Below, piece after piece: positions 45,767 to 51,547 of a stretch of 64,000 nucleotides of DNA. Both the position numbers and the translations under genes were made by a program. Below the pieces are notes generated by a model, which worked only from the letters and a program-made list of their open reading frames with translations, was not told where the DNA came from and searched no databases. The stretch spans positions 1,984,001-2,048,000 of the forward strand of contig NZ_AP012273.1 in assembly GCF_000828615.1 (NCBI RefSeq), read 5' to 3'. This DNA is from Thiolapillus brandeum (GTDB lineage: Bacteria; Pseudomonadota; Gammaproteobacteria; Chromatiales; Chromatiaceae). Numbering within the stretch: position 1 is the stretch's first letter; the number at the start of each line of letters is the position of its first letter.

Positions 45767-46210
45767 ATGAAGAAGATCGAAGTATCATTGTTTTTCAGCA
45801 TGTTACTATGGTTATCTACAGGGATATCTGAAGATGCCATATATACGGCATTGTTCAGCAATGCCGCTGTAGGGGGCTATGATCCCGTGACCTATTTTAC
45901 CCAAGACAGCCCGGCAAAGGGAAACCAGGCCTACGCCCTCGAGCATGAAGGTGCCACCTGGTATTTCATCAGCAAGGAAAACCGCCGCCTGTTTCAGAGC
46001 AACCCGGAGAAATATGCGCCTCAATACGGTGGTTACTGCGCCTGGGCCATAGCCCACGACACCACTGCCAGGGGCGATCCAAAACAATGGACCCTGTACC
46101 AGGGCAAGCTCTACCTGAACTACGATGCTGCCATCAAAAAGGATTGGGAGCAGGACAAACCCCGCTGGATCCGGGAAGCGGACAGAAACTGGCCAAAGGT
46201 ATTGCAGTAA
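45767..46210 (+). CDS. Secreted YHS-domain protein
   Basis: A 147-aa exported protein (signal peptide SLFFSMLLWLSTGISE). The YHS-like region is VGGYDPVTYFTQDSPAKGN, then WYFISKENRRLFQSNPEKYA and PQYGGYCAWAIAHD. Such domains are thought to bind metal. It lies 61 bases before the DoxX-like gene on the same strand and may be the first gene of the operon that leads into the decarboxylase cluster. Confidence 0.82.
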   Translation: MKKIEVSLFFSMLLWLSTGISEDAIYTALFSNAAVGGYDPVTYFTQDSPAKGNQAYALEHEGATWYFISKENRRLFQSNPEKYAPQYGGYCAWAIAHDTTARGDPKQWTLYQGKLYLNYDAAIKKDWEQDKPRWIREADRNWPKVLQ

Positions 46211-46271
46211 CCAGCCTGAGTTATCCAGGGCAAACACTCATCAGAACATTCCCAACCGACAAGGACAAGCC

Positions 46272-46772
46272 ATGAAAAAAAACATTATTCCCGTAATCAG
46301 CTGGATACTGGCCCTATGGGCCTGCAACATCTTTCTCAGCTCGCTTCCCTACAAATTCAGCAACCATCCGGATACTGTCCACATATTCAGTACCATTGGT
46401 TCCTGGCTGCAGGGTTTTCTCGGCGACAACCTGGGAGGGCTTTTTGCCCGATACGGCGCCTACGGTGTGGGCAGCTTCGAGCTGCTCACCTCCCTGACCC
46501 TGCTTTCACCGGCCCTGTTCTGGCTGCTGGGCAGGATGGCGCCGGATCTGAAACTGCCCTCCCGCCGCCTGATGCACCGTATCGGTGGCGCCATGGCCAG
46601 CATGGTCATGGGTGGCGCAGTATTCTTTCACCTGGCTTCTCCTCTGGGCGTGGAAGTGCTGCATGAAGGCAAGGGCGACGGCGGATCCCTGTTTTATGCT
46701 GCCGTTTCCATCCTCGTCTCTGGTATCATTCTGTTTTTGATCAACCGCAAACCAGGCGCCGCAGCAGAATAG
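46272..46772 (+). CDS. DoxX-like membrane protein
   Basis: A 166-aa inner-membrane protein with about four helices. SSLPYKFSNHP, GVGSFELLTSLTLLSPALFW and GAMASMVMGGAVFFHLASPL match the DoxX-type layout (small four-helix proteins linked to quinone or thiosulfate metabolism in some members), though the assignment is soft. It ends 4 bases before the PLP decarboxylase, so is probably co-transcribed with it. Confidence 0.68.
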   Translation: MKKNIIPVISWILALWACNIFLSSLPYKFSNHPDTVHIFSTIGSWLQGFLGDNLGGLFARYGAYGVGSFELLTSLTLLSPALFWLLGRMAPDLKLPSRRLMHRIGGAMASMVMGGAVFFHLASPLGVEVLHEGKGDGGSLFYAAVSILVSGIILFLINRKPGAAAE

Positions 46773-46776
46773 CCCC

Positions 46777-48183
46777 ATGAACGACCAAGCCATATTCCAG
46801 CGCCTGCTGGCCCTGGTGGAGCAGTATTACGCCCGGCGCAAGGAAGGGAAATTCCTGGAATACATGGAACCCCAGGCCCTGGCGGAGGTTCTGGATCTGG
46901 AACGCCAGGCCCCCGGGGACTGGCAACAGCTTTTCGACTGGATGGAAAAGTACCTGACCCATTCCGTCAAAACCGGCAATTCCGGCTTTCTCAACCGCAT
47001 GTGGTCCGGGGCCAATCTGCCCTCCATTATGGGCGAGATCATCACTGCAGTGACCAATACCTCGGCCTGCACCTATGAGGCAGCCCCCGTATCCACCCTC
47101 ATGGAACACTATATGCTCAACAGCATGCTGGAGCTGGTGGGGTTCGAACAGGGTGAGGGCCAGATGACCACGGGATCGAGCAATGGCAACATGATCGCCA
47201 TGCTTGCTGCCCGTAACCAGGTGGCTGAAAACATCAAGGAAAAAGGCCTGGTGAACCACCCGCCCCTGGTGGCTTTCGTATCCGCTGATGCCCACTATTC
47301 CCTGGACAAGGCCGCCAATATTCTCGGCCTGGGCACGGACAACCTGATCAAGGTGCCGGTGGATGAACGCGGTCGCATGCGACCAGACAGCCTGGAACAA
47401 CTGCTGCAGGAGCAGCAGGAACTGGAACGGCAGCCGTTCTTCGTCTGCGCCACCCTGGGCACCACCGTGCGTGGCGCCTATGACCCCCTGCCGGCGTTGT
47501 TGGAACTGCGGAACAAATACGGTTTCTGGCTGCATGGCGATGGCGCCTGGGGCGGAGCGGCTCTGCTGGACGATGAACTGCGCCAGCGCTATCTTCCCGG
47601 CGTGGAGCAACTGGACTCCTTCACCTGGGACTTCCACAAGATGCCCGGCAGCAATCTGATGTGCAACCTGCTGTTGTTCAACCATCACAAGGGCACCCTG
47701 CGCTGCGCCTGCTCTGCCGGAGAGCACAGCTATTTGTTCCGCGAAGAACACGAGGATGCAGAACTGGACACGGGCACCGCCTCCCTGCAGTGTGGTCGCC
47801 GGGTGGACAGCCTGAAATGGTTCCTGGACTGGAAATACTTTGGAAAGGAGGGACTGGGAAAGCGCGTGCGCCATTACCTCGAACTGTGCGAATACGCGGA
47901 ATCCCGCATCCAGTCGCTGCCCCGGCTGGAAATGACAGCCTTCCGGGAATCCTTCAATGTCTGCTTCCGTTTCCTCCCCCCCCCGAACCACAATGCCAAC
48001 GACTTCAACCTGAAGCTGCGCCACCGCCTGTTCGAGGAAGGCGTGACCCTGGTGGGGGTGGCCTTTATCGGAGAGATCCTGACGCTGCGTCTGCTCATTA
48101 CCCACCCGGACTTCAGCCAGAAGGACGTGGACAGCTTTCTGCAATCTGTCATCGACATGGGAGAACGCTTGTTGAATGAATGA
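46777..48183 (+). CDS. Group II PLP-dependent decarboxylase (GAD/CSAD-like)
   Basis: A 468-aa aminotransferase-fold enzyme that removes the alpha-carboxyl of an amino acid. TTGSSNGNMIAMLAARNQ is the PLP-phosphate loop. ADAHYSLDKAANILGLG holds the ring-stacking His. WLHGDGAWGGAALLDD has the cofactor-binding Asp; HVDAAWGG is usual, so two small changes surround the Asp. DFHKMPGSNLMCNLLLF has the PLP Lys. The HK, then eight residues, then C pattern matches glutamate and cysteine-sulfinate decarboxylases rather than the aromatic class. The next gene is cysteine-dioxygenase-like, so cysteine sulfinate to hypotaurine is a good guess. The 8-base overlap with that gene implies coupling. Confidence 0.88.
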   Translation: MNDQAIFQRLLALVEQYYARRKEGKFLEYMEPQALAEVLDLERQAPGDWQQLFDWMEKYLTHSVKTGNSGFLNRMWSGANLPSIMGEIITAVTNTSACTYEAAPVSTLMEHYMLNSMLELVGFEQGEGQMTTGSSNGNMIAMLAARNQVAENIKEKGLVNHPPLVAFVSADAHYSLDKAANILGLGTDNLIKVPVDERGRMRPDSLEQLLQEQQELERQPFFVCATLGTTVRGAYDPLPALLELRNKYGFWLHGDGAWGGAALLDDELRQRYLPGVEQLDSFTWDFHKMPGSNLMCNLLLFNHHKGTLRCACSAGEHSYLFREEHEDAELDTGTASLQCGRRVDSLKWFLDWKYFGKEGLGKRVRHYLELCEYAESRIQSLPRLEMTAFRESFNVCFRFLPPPNHNANDFNLKLRHRLFEEGVTLVGVAFIGEILTLRLLITHPDFSQKDVDSFLQSVIDMGERLLNE

Positions 48184-48667
48184 CTGCAAAGCAAAAACCT
48201 GGCCGGCTCCAGCACTCTCCCCGGGGCAACAACAACTGCTGGAGGCCCTGGCCTGTCATCTTGACGATGAAGCCGGTCTCGTGGAACTGGCGGCGGATTT
48301 TCAGGCAGAGGGGCACTATCCCCTTGCCCCGCACTGCTACTCCCGATCCGTGCTCTATCGCCACCCCCAGGGCGCGGAGATCATGGTGGCACGTTGGGAC
48401 GCGGGTGCCTGCACGCCCACCCATGGCCATCCCCAATATGCCTTCGTCCTGGTTCTCCAGGGCCGCCTGCAGATGGAACACTTCGTGGCCACCCCAAAGG
48501 GATTGCAACTCACAGGAACCCGGATAAAGAACGCTGGCGAGCATATCTACGCCTCCGGACGGGAAGGCCGTTATGACAATGCCATCCACCGGGTCACTGC
48601 CCTGGAACCCAGCCTCAGCCTGCACATCTACTCCGACGACGCCCTCAAGGGAATCTGTTTCGACTGA
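48176..48667 (+). CDS. Cysteine-dioxygenase-family protein (cupin)
   Basis: A 163-aa protein of the CDO type. THGHPQYAFVLVLQGRL corresponds to the first cupin motif with two iron-ligand His residues. NAIHRVTALEP contains the third (LHRVEN in known CDOs) and SLSLHIYSDDAL matches SLHLYSPP with the conserved His and Tyr. The Cys that forms the thioether link in mammalian CDO is not present, as in bacterial homologues. It is shorter than rat CDO (200 aa). It would oxidise cysteine, or a related thiol, to the sulfinate. Its ATG lies within the decarboxylase end. Confidence 0.82.
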   Translation: MNDCKAKTWPAPALSPGQQQLLEALACHLDDEAGLVELAADFQAEGHYPLAPHCYSRSVLYRHPQGAEIMVARWDAGACTPTHGHPQYAFVLVLQGRLQMEHFVATPKGLQLTGTRIKNAGEHIYASGREGRYDNAIHRVTALEPSLSLHIYSDDALKGICFD

Positions 48668-49473
48668 TGCTGCGCGTTCGCCTGGTACTCAGCTACATGG
48701 GCTGGTGTCTGCGCCTGGGCGTGGGATCCTGGAAATACTTCCAGCTCAACGCCCCCTGGTTCAACGGGCAGCGCCGTCTGTTCTCCAAACTCGACACGGA
48801 TCAGCTCATACCGAAGCCCTGGCGCCTGCACCAGACTCCCCTGGCCAATACCATCATGCCCCGGAACTGGCCCGTATTCCTCAAGCCCGAATGGGGACAG
48901 AATGCCAGAGGCATCGCCGTGGCGCGAAACCCGGAGGATTGGCAGCGCCTGCGCGAACCCCTGTTGCAGCAGCCAGTGCCCTACCTGGTGCAGGAAGCGG
49001 CCCCCGGCAAGCACGAGTTCGAGGTTTTTTTCATCCGCAGGGCAGCGGACCAACGGCAGGCCGCCATTCTCTCCATCACCGAAACCCTCAATCAGGGAGG
49101 AGACGACTGGCCAGTGAACAGCATCCTCAATCCGGACACCCGGCATGCCACCTTGTCCCTGTCCCGGGAACAAATGCAACGACTATGGCAGCAAATAAGC
49201 CAGCTGCCACCATTTCGCATCGCCCGGGTGGGATTGCGCAGCAATTCCATCGAAGCCATGCTGGACGGCAACTTCCACATCATCGAAATCAATCTGTTCG
49301 TGCCCATGCCTTTAACCCTGCTGGATGAAGGCATCCCCCTGAAACAACGCCATGCTTTCATCAGCCCGGCCATGAAAGCCCTGGCTGAACTGACCCTGGC
49401 CCTGCCCGGCTCCCAGGAGAAAAAAAGCATCTTCTGGCCCATGTTCTTTCTCAACTACCGGATCAAGCCATGA
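48667..49473 (+). CDS. ATP-grasp-like ligase, first of two
   Basis: A 268-aa protein. WPVFLKPEWGQNARGIAVAR fits the ATP-grasp Lys/Gly loop. PYLVQEAAPGKHEFEVFFIR fits the adenine-binding strand, and IEINLFVPMPLTLLDE has the E-I-N metal-binding motif. The N-terminal ~60 residues are specific and carry a hydrophobic stretch. It is distant from named families; the closest feel is amide- or peptide-bond forming ligases. It could be catalytic or a non-processive partner. Its ATG shares a base with the CDO stop (TGATG). Confidence 0.72.
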   Translation: MLRVRLVLSYMGWCLRLGVGSWKYFQLNAPWFNGQRRLFSKLDTDQLIPKPWRLHQTPLANTIMPRNWPVFLKPEWGQNARGIAVARNPEDWQRLREPLLQQPVPYLVQEAAPGKHEFEVFFIRRAADQRQAAILSITETLNQGGDDWPVNSILNPDTRHATLSLSREQMQRLWQQISQLPPFRIARVGLRSNSIEAMLDGNFHIIEINLFVPMPLTLLDEGIPLKQRHAFISPAMKALAELTLALPGSQEKKSIFWPMFFLNYRIKP

Positions 49474-50378
49474 AGGCACTGAAAAAACTCATCTACACAT
49501 GGATCGACAAGCTGTTCCTGCGTGGTTGCAGCAGCTACAACCCCCTGGAGGTACGCAAGAGTTGCCGTTCCAAAGAGCAGGCCCGGGCGGTATTCGCCGC
49601 CAACGGCATTCCCCACGCCCGGGGAGAGATTTTCTTCAGCCCGCTACGCGCTTACCGTTTCGCCAGGACCCACGGTTTTCCCCTGGTGATCAAGCCCAAT
49701 GTCTCCGGATTTTCCCGGGGCAGTCATTTCCCCATCAATAGTTTCAGAGAACTGTGGAAAGCCTCCCTGATGGTCAAGATCTGGTGGCCCTGGTCCGTGG
49801 TGGAGGAATATCTGCAGGGACGCAACTACCGGGTGCTCGTGGGCAATGGTGAAATCATCTCCGTGATCCGCCGCTACCCGCCTTTCGTCACCGGTGATGG
49901 CCAGTCCAGTATCAGCCAGCTCATCGACAGGGAAAACCAGGTGCGCGAAAAAATGGGACTCTACCCCGTCATCCATCCAATACCCAAGAACCGCGCCATC
50001 CGCCGCTACCTGGGCAAACAGGGGCTGAACCTGAACAGCATTCCCGGGGCTGACGAGGAAGTCATCCTGTTCAACCGCATCTCCCTGGCCCCCGGCGGTG
50101 TGGTGGAAACCATCGACACCCGGAACATTCCGGAAATCAATCAACGCCTGTTCAAACGAATACTGGAGCTGTTCAACGCCAATATCCTGGGCATAGACGT
50201 GATCATGGAACAAGGCATCGAAATCCCCTGGAACGAACAGAAGTGCATCTTCCTGGAGGTCAATTCCCGACCCTTTACCGCCATGCACACCGTGCCCCGT
50301 TTCGGCCCTCAGCAGGATCTGAGTCAGGCTTTCGAGAACCTGGACGCCCTCAACATCGACAACCGGGACATCTTCTGA
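49470..50378 (+). CDS. ATP-grasp ligase resembling cyanophycin synthetase
   Basis: A 302-aa ligase. RSKEQARAVFAANGIPHARG is the pre-grasp start, GFPLVIKPNVSGFSRGSHF the Lys/Gly loop and VVEEYLQGRNYRVLVGNGEI the adenine-site strand. PPFVTGDGQSSISQLIDREN is very close to a segment of CphA and GshF. LEVNSRPFTAMHT at the end holds the E-x-N magnesium motif. It should form an amide between an activated carboxylate and an amine. It lacks the Mur-ligase domain of CphA and is a stand-alone unit. It overlaps the previous gene (ATGA). Confidence 0.83.
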   Translation: MKALKKLIYTWIDKLFLRGCSSYNPLEVRKSCRSKEQARAVFAANGIPHARGEIFFSPLRAYRFARTHGFPLVIKPNVSGFSRGSHFPINSFRELWKASLMVKIWWPWSVVEEYLQGRNYRVLVGNGEIISVIRRYPPFVTGDGQSSISQLIDRENQVREKMGLYPVIHPIPKNRAIRRYLGKQGLNLNSIPGADEEVILFNRISLAPGGVVETIDTRNIPEINQRLFKRILELFNANILGIDVIMEQGIEIPWNEQKCIFLEVNSRPFTAMHTVPRFGPQQDLSQAFENLDALNIDNRDIF

Positions 50379-51547
50379 TGGCCCTGCCCCACTCCACACG
50401 GCTGTTCTACCGTTTCCTCGGCCTGCATTCCTTTCTCATTGGCCTGTTTCCCTTCTTCATTCCCGTATTCCTGTGGAAACACGACTATAGCCTGGCGCAG
50501 ATCAGCAGTTTCATCGCCATCACTGGCGTTGGCTTCGTACTAACCTTGTGGATCTGGGACCGGATGCACAAGACCCTGCCCCTGAACACCCTCATCGCCA
50601 CTTCCTTCCTCGTGGAAAGCGCCCTGTTGGCCATGATCTTCATCGAAGGAAGCCCCGGCTTTCTGCCCCTCCTGGCTCTGCTCAATGGCGCCTATAACTG
50701 CTTCTTCTGGATCACCCAACGAGCCTTGTTCTTCGAGACCCTGGGCGAAACAGACACAGGCCGGCGCTTTGGCAATTTCCAGGTCGTGGTGGTCATCATC
50801 ATCAAGATGGGAGTGTTGTTTGGCGGCCTGCTTCTGGACAAGGCGGGATATTGGTCTGTTTTCCTGCTCTCATCCTTCATTGGCGTCCTTGGCATGACCT
50901 CTTTCTTCCTTCTGAAAGAACCCATGGAACTACCCCGGACATTGCGTGAAGAAGCTCCTCTGAGTTTGAAAATGATCCTGGAATTCAAGGATTCTCACCA
51001 CTCCCGCTCGATATTTCTTTTGGATGGCCCTTTCCTGTTCCTGGAAAGCTACTTCTGGATGATTTCCCTGTTCCTTCTGGCCCATGAAAGTTTCTGGAAG
51101 CTGGGCGCCCTGGTGATCCTACTGGGAGCTGGCTTCAGCGCCCTTTTCTACCTCATCAAGAACCGCATTGACCATATGCCGGTACAACGCATCTACATCA
51201 TTGCCGCAACGGGCTACAGCCTGTCCTGGTTCATGCGCGCCACAGTGGATGAGAACCTGCCCCTGGGATGGCTGTTCGCCATCCTGCTGATCATCACCTT
51301 CTGCACTTCCTTCTTCCGCCTGGCCTTCAACAAGCGTTTTTTCGATCTGGCGCAGCATACCTCCGCCCACCGTTATCTGTTTCTGAAAAGCTATTATTCC
51401 CAATTCAGCATCGCCCTGGGATTTTCCCTGGCCGCCATCGCCTTCACCCTGAGCCAGGGACATTCCGAGACACTGTTGCGCTTCAGCTATCTGGCGGCGG
51501 GCCTTTTTGCCCCCCTGTTCCTGCTTTATCGTTCCCGCCCCGGCTGA
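50378..51547 (+). CDS. MFS-type transporter of the five-gene cluster
   Basis: A 389-aa membrane protein with about 12 helices. Segments include FLIGLFPFFIPVFLWKH, ISSFIAITGVGFVLTLWIWD, KMGVLFGGLLLDKAGYWSVF and FSYLAAGLFAPLFLLYRS. The layout fits the major facilitator superfamily, with no strong motif A. It starts on the stop of the CphA-like gene (TGATG) and is the last gene of the cluster, so it probably exports, or imports, the product. Its 3' end overlaps the convergent membrane-protein gene by 65 bases. Confidence 0.8.
   Translation: MALPHSTRLFYRFLGLHSFLIGLFPFFIPVFLWKHDYSLAQISSFIAITGVGFVLTLWIWDRMHKTLPLNTLIATSFLVESALLAMIFIEGSPGFLPLLALLNGAYNCFFWITQRALFFETLGETDTGRRFGNFQVVVVIIIKMGVLFGGLLLDKAGYWSVFLLSSFIGVLGMTSFFLLKEPMELPRTLREEAPLSLKMILEFKDSHHSRSIFLLDGPFLFLESYFWMISLFLLAHESFWKLGALVILLGAGFSALFYLIKNRIDHMPVQRIYIIAATGYSLSWFMRATVDENLPLGWLFAILLIITFCTSFFRLAFNKRFFDLAQHTSAHRYLFLKSYYSQFSIALGFSLAAIAFTLSQGHSETLLRFSYLAAGLFAPLFLLYRSRPG

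Follow-up and report, generated by a model that had tools for sequence, protein, structure and literature searches.

What is made by a row of five overlapping genes for a decarboxylase, a cupin, two ATP-grasp ligases and a transporter, and from which amine? The row occupies positions 46,777 to 51,547 of a 64,000-nucleotide stretch of the genome of the marine sulfur-oxidising bacterium Thiolapillus brandeum (contig NZ_AP012273.1, positions 1,984,001 to 2,048,000, forward strand; hereafter the window); the genome is of 3.15 Mb and 100% complete. A sequence-only reading had proposed that the first two genes supply a sulfur-containing amine, by cysteine dioxygenase (CDO) followed by a decarboxylase of the cysteine sulfinate decarboxylase (CSAD) type, that the ligases attach it to one or more acids and that the transporter exports the product. 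The reading favoured here, at a probability of roughly one half, is a modified one: a dual decarboxylase, predicted to use aspartate as well as cysteine sulfinate, would feed an amide ligase made of the two ATP-grasp proteins and served by an exporter.

Linkage of the decarboxylase to a ligase-exporter core

The order decarboxylase, cupin, ATP-grasp 1, ATP-grasp 2 is found in the window's genus, in Desulforhopalus (locus L058) and in the small genome G556 (L130), with identities of 38-56%; this recurrence is far beyond chance. Linkage was also evaluated in a class sample of 369 genomes, chosen without reference to decarboxylase or ligase, with a decarboxylase cut-off of E at most 1e-60. ATP-grasp 1 was present in 11 genomes and the decarboxylase in 7; both were found in 6, each from a family of its own (Fisher p = 9.5e-10; 2.7e-8 when the window genome is left out; uncorrected for phylogeny). 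The genome having the decarboxylase without the ligase (G571) is a 71% complete metagenome-assembled genome (MAG), where the decarboxylase lies at a contig end. In three genomes (G280, G422 and G489) decarboxylase and ligase are on different contigs, so that linkage drag cannot explain their co-occurrence. The view of decarboxylase and ligases as one functional set is borne out by these 6 of 7 class genomes and by clustering in at least five lineages of at least two phyla.

A scan for ATP-grasp 1 over 84,980 species, many of the surveyed genomes being MAGs, yielded 70 loci. ATP-grasp 1, ATP-grasp 2 and an MFS transporter gene stand together in nearly all of them (about 65 carry this core), the MFS gene following ATP-grasp 2. 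Carriers include Psychromonas, Granulosicoccaceae and Endozoicomonas. In Psychromonas, Endozoicomonas, Arenicellales and further groups, genes for YHS and/or DoxX proteins come immediately before it. It is the ATP-grasp pair and MFS that are conserved as a core, frequently with DoxX/YHS in front. Within the window's order, ATP-grasp 1 was found only in its own genus, where the named relatives are MAGs labelled Sedimenticola sp. and Thiolapillus brandeum.

Among the 70 loci, a cluster that includes decarboxylase and cupin is confined to the window's genus, Desulforhopalus and a Deltaproteobacterium (L088); L130, outside this set, also has the decarboxylase-cupin-ligase order. Because most ligase-exporter loci have neither gene beside them, the pair is regarded as an optional feeder, and the neighbourhood survey shows that not every cluster contains it. 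Most of the decarboxylase-adjacent loci group in one clade of the ATP-grasp 1 tree, Desulfocapsaceae contributing a separate case. Though optional, the feeder has a genuine link to the ligases.

It is quite improbable that the product of the ligase pair and exporter has nothing to do with either amine, decarboxylase and cupin being hitchhikers in a mobile neighbourhood. The many feeder-less loci, and the loss or gain of the feeder around conserved synteny within the genus, are consistent with such an origin; it is opposed by the co-occurrence over six families, three of them in trans, and by the gene order kept in a second phylum.

All five open reading frames (ORFs) of the window are intact, and the successive overlaps are of 8, 1, 4 and 1 nt, as had been claimed; the MFS start lies within a TGATG shared with the ATP-grasp 2 stop. 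The family assignments (Pyridoxal_deC, CDO-like, ATP-grasp twice, MFS_1) hold by profile or structure matches. The genes reported in the first two lines of Table 1, which had been mentioned as possible members, count as core, recurring as they do upstream of the ATP-grasp pair; they are separated from each other by 61 nt, and the second from the decarboxylase by 4 nt. The DoxX-like protein has 29 close homologues adjoining the ATP-grasp pair, with many invariant residues. Its longest ORF (46125-46772) runs into the YHS gene, the conserved start being the later ATG; a query begun at 46125, longer than the conserved ORF, gave no Pfam match. Scans for promoters, terminators and repeats gave nothing useful.

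Table 1. Genes of the cluster and the two genes preceding it (window positions; residues numbered by protein).
Feature	Position	Strand	Description
YHS-domain protein	45767..46210	+	147 aa, signal-like N-terminus; YHS E 9.7e-8, NF041384 E 3e-46
DoxX-like membrane protein	46272..46772	+	166 aa from ATG 46272; DoxX resemblance judged by eye
Group II PLP decarboxylase	46777..48183	+	468 aa; K288, H173, D255, R438; pocket W76, S96, C98
CDO-type thiol dioxygenase (cupin)	48176..48667	+	163 aa; R57, H83, H85, H138, S148-H150-Y152
ATP-grasp 1	48667..49473	+	268 aa; D-Ala-D-Ala-ligase-like fold; K73, E117, R187, E207, N209
ATP-grasp 2	49470..50378	+	302 aa; cyanophycin synthetase ATP-grasp domain alone; K75, E263, N265
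MFS transporter, presumed exporter	50378..51547	+	389 aa from ATG 50378; MFS_1 E 9.4e-11

Several variants were seen around the core. A VTT-domain membrane protein replaces MFS after ATP-grasp 2 in G556 (L130:10657-11223) and in an Arcobacteraceae (L077:11712-12269). The Deltaproteobacterium MAG has an ATP-grasp 1 remnant between cupin and ATP-grasp 2 (L088:4738-4845) and an intact ATP-grasp 1 on another contig (L042:4731-5537). In Granulosicoccaceae (L045-L076) the core often sits between genes for a retroviral-type aspartic protease and an AMP nucleosidase-like protein; these Granulosicoccus neighbours, and the PutP-like one of Psychromonas, were taken as local context and not as parts of the system. 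In unrelated bacteria the ATP-grasp pair is adjoined by a DinB-superfamily-like protein of about 170-200 aa, either with a TANGO2/NRDE protein (L034, L036, L077, L027) or without it (L035, L041). DinB-like folds include thiol-dependent enzymes.

Decarboxylase pocket and the source of beta-alanine

The decarboxylase matches Pyridoxal_deC at 255.6 bits (cut-off 27, E = 8e-76), and its closest solved structures are CSAD, GADL1 and glutamate decarboxylase (GAD) (6zek, E = 6e-89; 6enz, E = 3e-86). The pyridoxal phosphate (PLP) lysine K288, the stacking His H173 and D255 are kept in all cluster-type homologues covering these positions. Catalytic Lys, His and Asp, the carboxylate Arg and a bulky specificity residue are shared with the animal CSAD, GADL1 and GAD enzymes, whereas the window protein has Trp in place of Phe or Tyr and Ser-x-Cys in place of Ser-x-Tyr; in decarboxylases of its type, which form a separate clade in the tree, the catalytic-loop Tyr is not conserved. 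The signature of CSAD, which we take to be Phe and Ser-x-Tyr at positions read from the CSAD alignment, is replaced by Trp76, Ser96 and Cys98, with only the Ser in common.

GAD has Ser as the specificity residue, GADL1 has Tyr and CSAD has Phe, and GADL1 is reported to be active on both aspartate and cysteine sulfinate (PMC7367687). With Trp at this position, the pocket is expected to shut out glutamate and to accommodate aspartate or cysteine sulfinate. Glutamate decarboxylation to gamma-aminobutyrate as the main role was discarded, the glutamate-specific Ser being Trp here and the Asn-Met-Phe motif absent. An aldehyde-synthase reading, suggested by the absence of the catalytic-loop Tyr, was given up, since in the alignment this Tyr is absent from related bacterial decarboxylases as well.

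The genomic distribution points to aspartate. PanD is found in none of the 15 genomes of the genus and in 17 of 23 other relatives, the genus being a clade without PanD surrounded by relatives that mostly have it. Of 12 genus genomes, 10 retain PanC. The decarboxylase is present in 13 of the 15, the two misses being MAGs 84% and 89% complete, and no other group II decarboxylase was found in the window genome. Of the 7 decarboxylase genomes in the class sample, 1 has PanD, compared with 239 of the 362 others (p = 0.008). In four genomes (G195, G093, G110 and G184) neither cupin nor ligases nor MFS adjoin the decarboxylase, and a CDO could not be detected anywhere in the genome; Trp76, Ser96 and Cys98 are identical in solitary and clustered enzymes. 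For G195, which has 8% estimated contamination, absence of the ligases was judged from the neighbourhood of the decarboxylase; its nesting among cluster-bearing relatives implies that the rest was probably lost and the decarboxylase kept.

From these patterns, the most likely role of the decarboxylase is to convert aspartate to beta-alanine for pantothenate; it is present where PanD is absent and PanC present in the genus, and in the class sample G556, which has PanD, is an exception. Taken by itself, this role has a higher probability than the full model of dual decarboxylase, ligase and exporter. The CSAD-only part of the earlier proposal is not supported, on the same grounds (PanD loss with PanC kept, the four CDO-less genomes, the shared active-site residues). 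That proposal was to fall if an acid unrelated to CDO were preferred, and aspartate probably brings this about by half.

There is a precedent among the aspartate 1-decarboxylases PanP, DVU0867 and MfnA, which belong to the same superfamily and have the same inferred job in PanD-less genomes; DVU0867, a distant PLP decarboxylase, complements E. coli panD (PMC10102598). The window enzyme differs from them by low model scores (108.9 bits against a cut-off of 606.1 for the PanP equivalog TIGR03799; 78.5 against 299 for MfnA) and by its clustering with ligases and a CDO-like gene.

It could be asked whether aspartate is the only substrate, beta-alanine being the sole ligase amine and the cupin acting elsewhere, for instance by oxidising a thiol in the final product. 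We consider this rather unlikely, even if PanD loss with PanC retention, the four CDO-less genomes and DVU0867 all agree with it, as does Psychromonas, in which the ligase core is accompanied by PanD, without CDO or this decarboxylase, so that the two groups have beta-alanine as their only predicted amine in common. What opposes it is that in most other lineages the decarboxylase stands beside a CDO-like gene, also in pairs distant from the ligases (L110, L111 and L132, from Granulosicoccaceae-like genomes, and L133). G556, too, keeps the decarboxylase-cupin-ligase cluster despite its PanD, which implies a non-pantothenate job for the decarboxylase there.

The cupin and the hypotaurine question

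The cupin, at 21.6 bits, is just under the CDO_I cut-off of 23, which is passed by five genus relatives (23.9-30.8 bits) and by L130 (36.8 bits). A CDO fold, three His for the iron site, an Arg of the cysteine type and the Ser-His-Tyr triad are all present, and the top match of the structure model is the Cys-bound CDO of B. subtilis, 4qm9 (E = 1e-9). By alignment, Arg57, His83, His85, His138 and Ser148-His150-Tyr152 correspond to what we take to be Arg60, His86, His88, His140 and Ser153-His155-Tyr157 of CDO. The triad Tyr is lost in the Desulforhopalus cupin and is Phe in L110/L111. These features, from alignment and model, support a CDO-type thiol dioxygenase with cysteine-type residues. Fold, three His and triad are shared both with CDO (B. 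subtilis YubC/4qm9, mammalian CDO1), from which the Arg is also conserved, and with the 3-mercaptopropionate dioxygenase 6xb9; the latter activity is disfavoured, 6xb9 having Gln and not Arg at the substrate carboxylate position. The window protein differs from all of them by its score under the Pfam cut-off, about 20% identity and its place in an operon with ligases.

The decarboxylase adjoins a CDO-like gene in 5 of the 6 informative class genomes; in G280 the neighbour is a bona fide CDO_I protein (70.9 bits). By analogy with GADL1, the decarboxylase probably also makes hypotaurine where a CDO-like gene is present. Prokaryotic CDO-CSAD pairs are reported by Agnello et al. 2013, as cited in PMC10356861; in the taurine pathway as outlined there, CDO-like and CSAD-like genes lie side by side, as here, whereas the window adds two ATP-grasps, an exporter, DoxX and YHS, and a decarboxylase that probably also serves pantothenate.

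The proposal of a sulfur amine from decarboxylase and CDO stands as far as the CDO-type cupin and the recurrent pairing are concerned; the decarboxylase is probably not simply a CDO-fed CSAD. In its original form, in which a dedicated CDO-CSAD pair makes hypotaurine only and the ligases a hypotaurine amide exported by MFS, it is improbable. The CDO-type catalytic residues, the Arg, the pairing and the best structural relatives (CSAD and GADL1) favour it, but against it stand the loss of PanD throughout the genus, the window genome having no second group II decarboxylase, and the solitary decarboxylases, whose pocket is identical in genomes without a detectable CDO. Both groups of observations are accounted for by a dual enzyme: PanD loss and solitary decarboxylases on one side, the decarboxylase-CDO pairing and G556 on the other.

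The paired ligases and their predicted product

ATP-grasp 1 falls in no Pfam family and has no meaningful sequence match in the PDB. Its structure model (pLDDT 93.7) matches D-Ala-D-Ala ligases (Ddl E = 1.4e-7, TM 0.5), and the catalytic K73, E207 and N209 are invariant in a 45-sequence alignment. ATP-grasp 2 matches the cyanophycin synthetase model TIGR02068 (E = 2.8e-42) in the ATP-grasp part only, covering model positions 212-465 of 862 at 144.8 bits against a cut-off of 850. A full cyanophycin synthetase was rejected, the protein being of 302 aa and without the Mur-ligase-like C-terminal domain. By alignment and model, both proteins have the ATP-grasp fold and the catalytic Lys, Glu and Asn. 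In a Gracilibacteria (L086:3086-4822, code 25) the two are fused into one 578-aa protein, whose reading frame contains seven TGA codons translated as Gly and lies behind a DoxX-like gene; the fusion is strong evidence that ATP-grasps 1 and 2 work together. Amide-bond chemistry of the ATP-grasp type is common to these proteins, the cyanophycin synthetase domain and the D-Ala-D-Ala ligases; they differ from those enzymes and from BacD in being two minimal ATP-grasps that act as a pair, one of them outside Pfam. In bacilysin-type systems, the BacD ligase likewise lies beside an MFS exporter, BacE.

According to the dual-decarboxylase reading, the operon would couple the supply of a small omega-amino compound to ligation and export. 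The decarboxylase would remove the alpha-carboxylate of aspartate, giving beta-alanine in place of PanD and feeding pantothenate; with the CDO-type enzyme converting cysteine and O2 to cysteine sulfinate, it would also give hypotaurine. The two ATP-grasps, as one complex, would activate a carboxylate as acyl phosphate, to be captured by the amine, and the product would be an amide or short peptide with beta-alanine or hypotaurine as a constituent. MFS, or the VTT protein in some relatives, would carry it over the inner membrane, the DoxX and YHS proteins having a putative accessory role at the membrane or periplasm.

Several observations weigh against this reading. Most core loci, including those of Psychromonas and most Granulosicoccaceae, have neither decarboxylase nor CDO alongside, and CDO_I is found in only 2 of 34 ligase genomes; from both facts, hypotaurine is not a general substrate unless imported, and imported taurine or hypotaurine may be the ligase amine in Psychromonas. 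G476 (L129) keeps decarboxylase, ATP-grasp 1, ATP-grasp 2 and MFS without the cupin. PanD and the clustered decarboxylase are both present in G556, so that PanD replacement is not universal, and uracil or polyamine breakdown may also give beta-alanine in the genus. The catalytic-loop Tyr of mammalian GAD and CSAD is not conserved.

The ligase pair and exporter recur widely in marine bacteria, and no description of such a gene set was found in the literature searched; the Hiromi 1 genome paper does not mention the cluster genes. A broader proposal is tentative and possibly wrong: in an undescribed and widespread marine system, the two-ATP-grasp complex would make an exported beta-alanine- or hypotaurine-amide, and sulfur bacteria would have captured the beta-alanine enzyme of CoA synthesis, joined to a cysteine dioxygenase. 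If so, marine bacteria would commonly make and export an unrecognised small amide, a new entry into marine dissolved organic nitrogen or sulfur, the producers being Psychromonas, Granulosicoccaceae, vent sulfur oxidisers, sulfate reducers, Arcobacteraceae and even a Gracilibacteria. In vent animals, a role in sulfide detoxification is attributed to hypotaurine and compounds like it (PMC10548688), and gastropod symbionts are among the relatives of the window's genus (PMC4136832); the presence of a hypotaurine derivative in such bacteria would be open to a direct test. Independently of the ligase model, the decarboxylase is a predicted source of beta-alanine for a genus without PanD.

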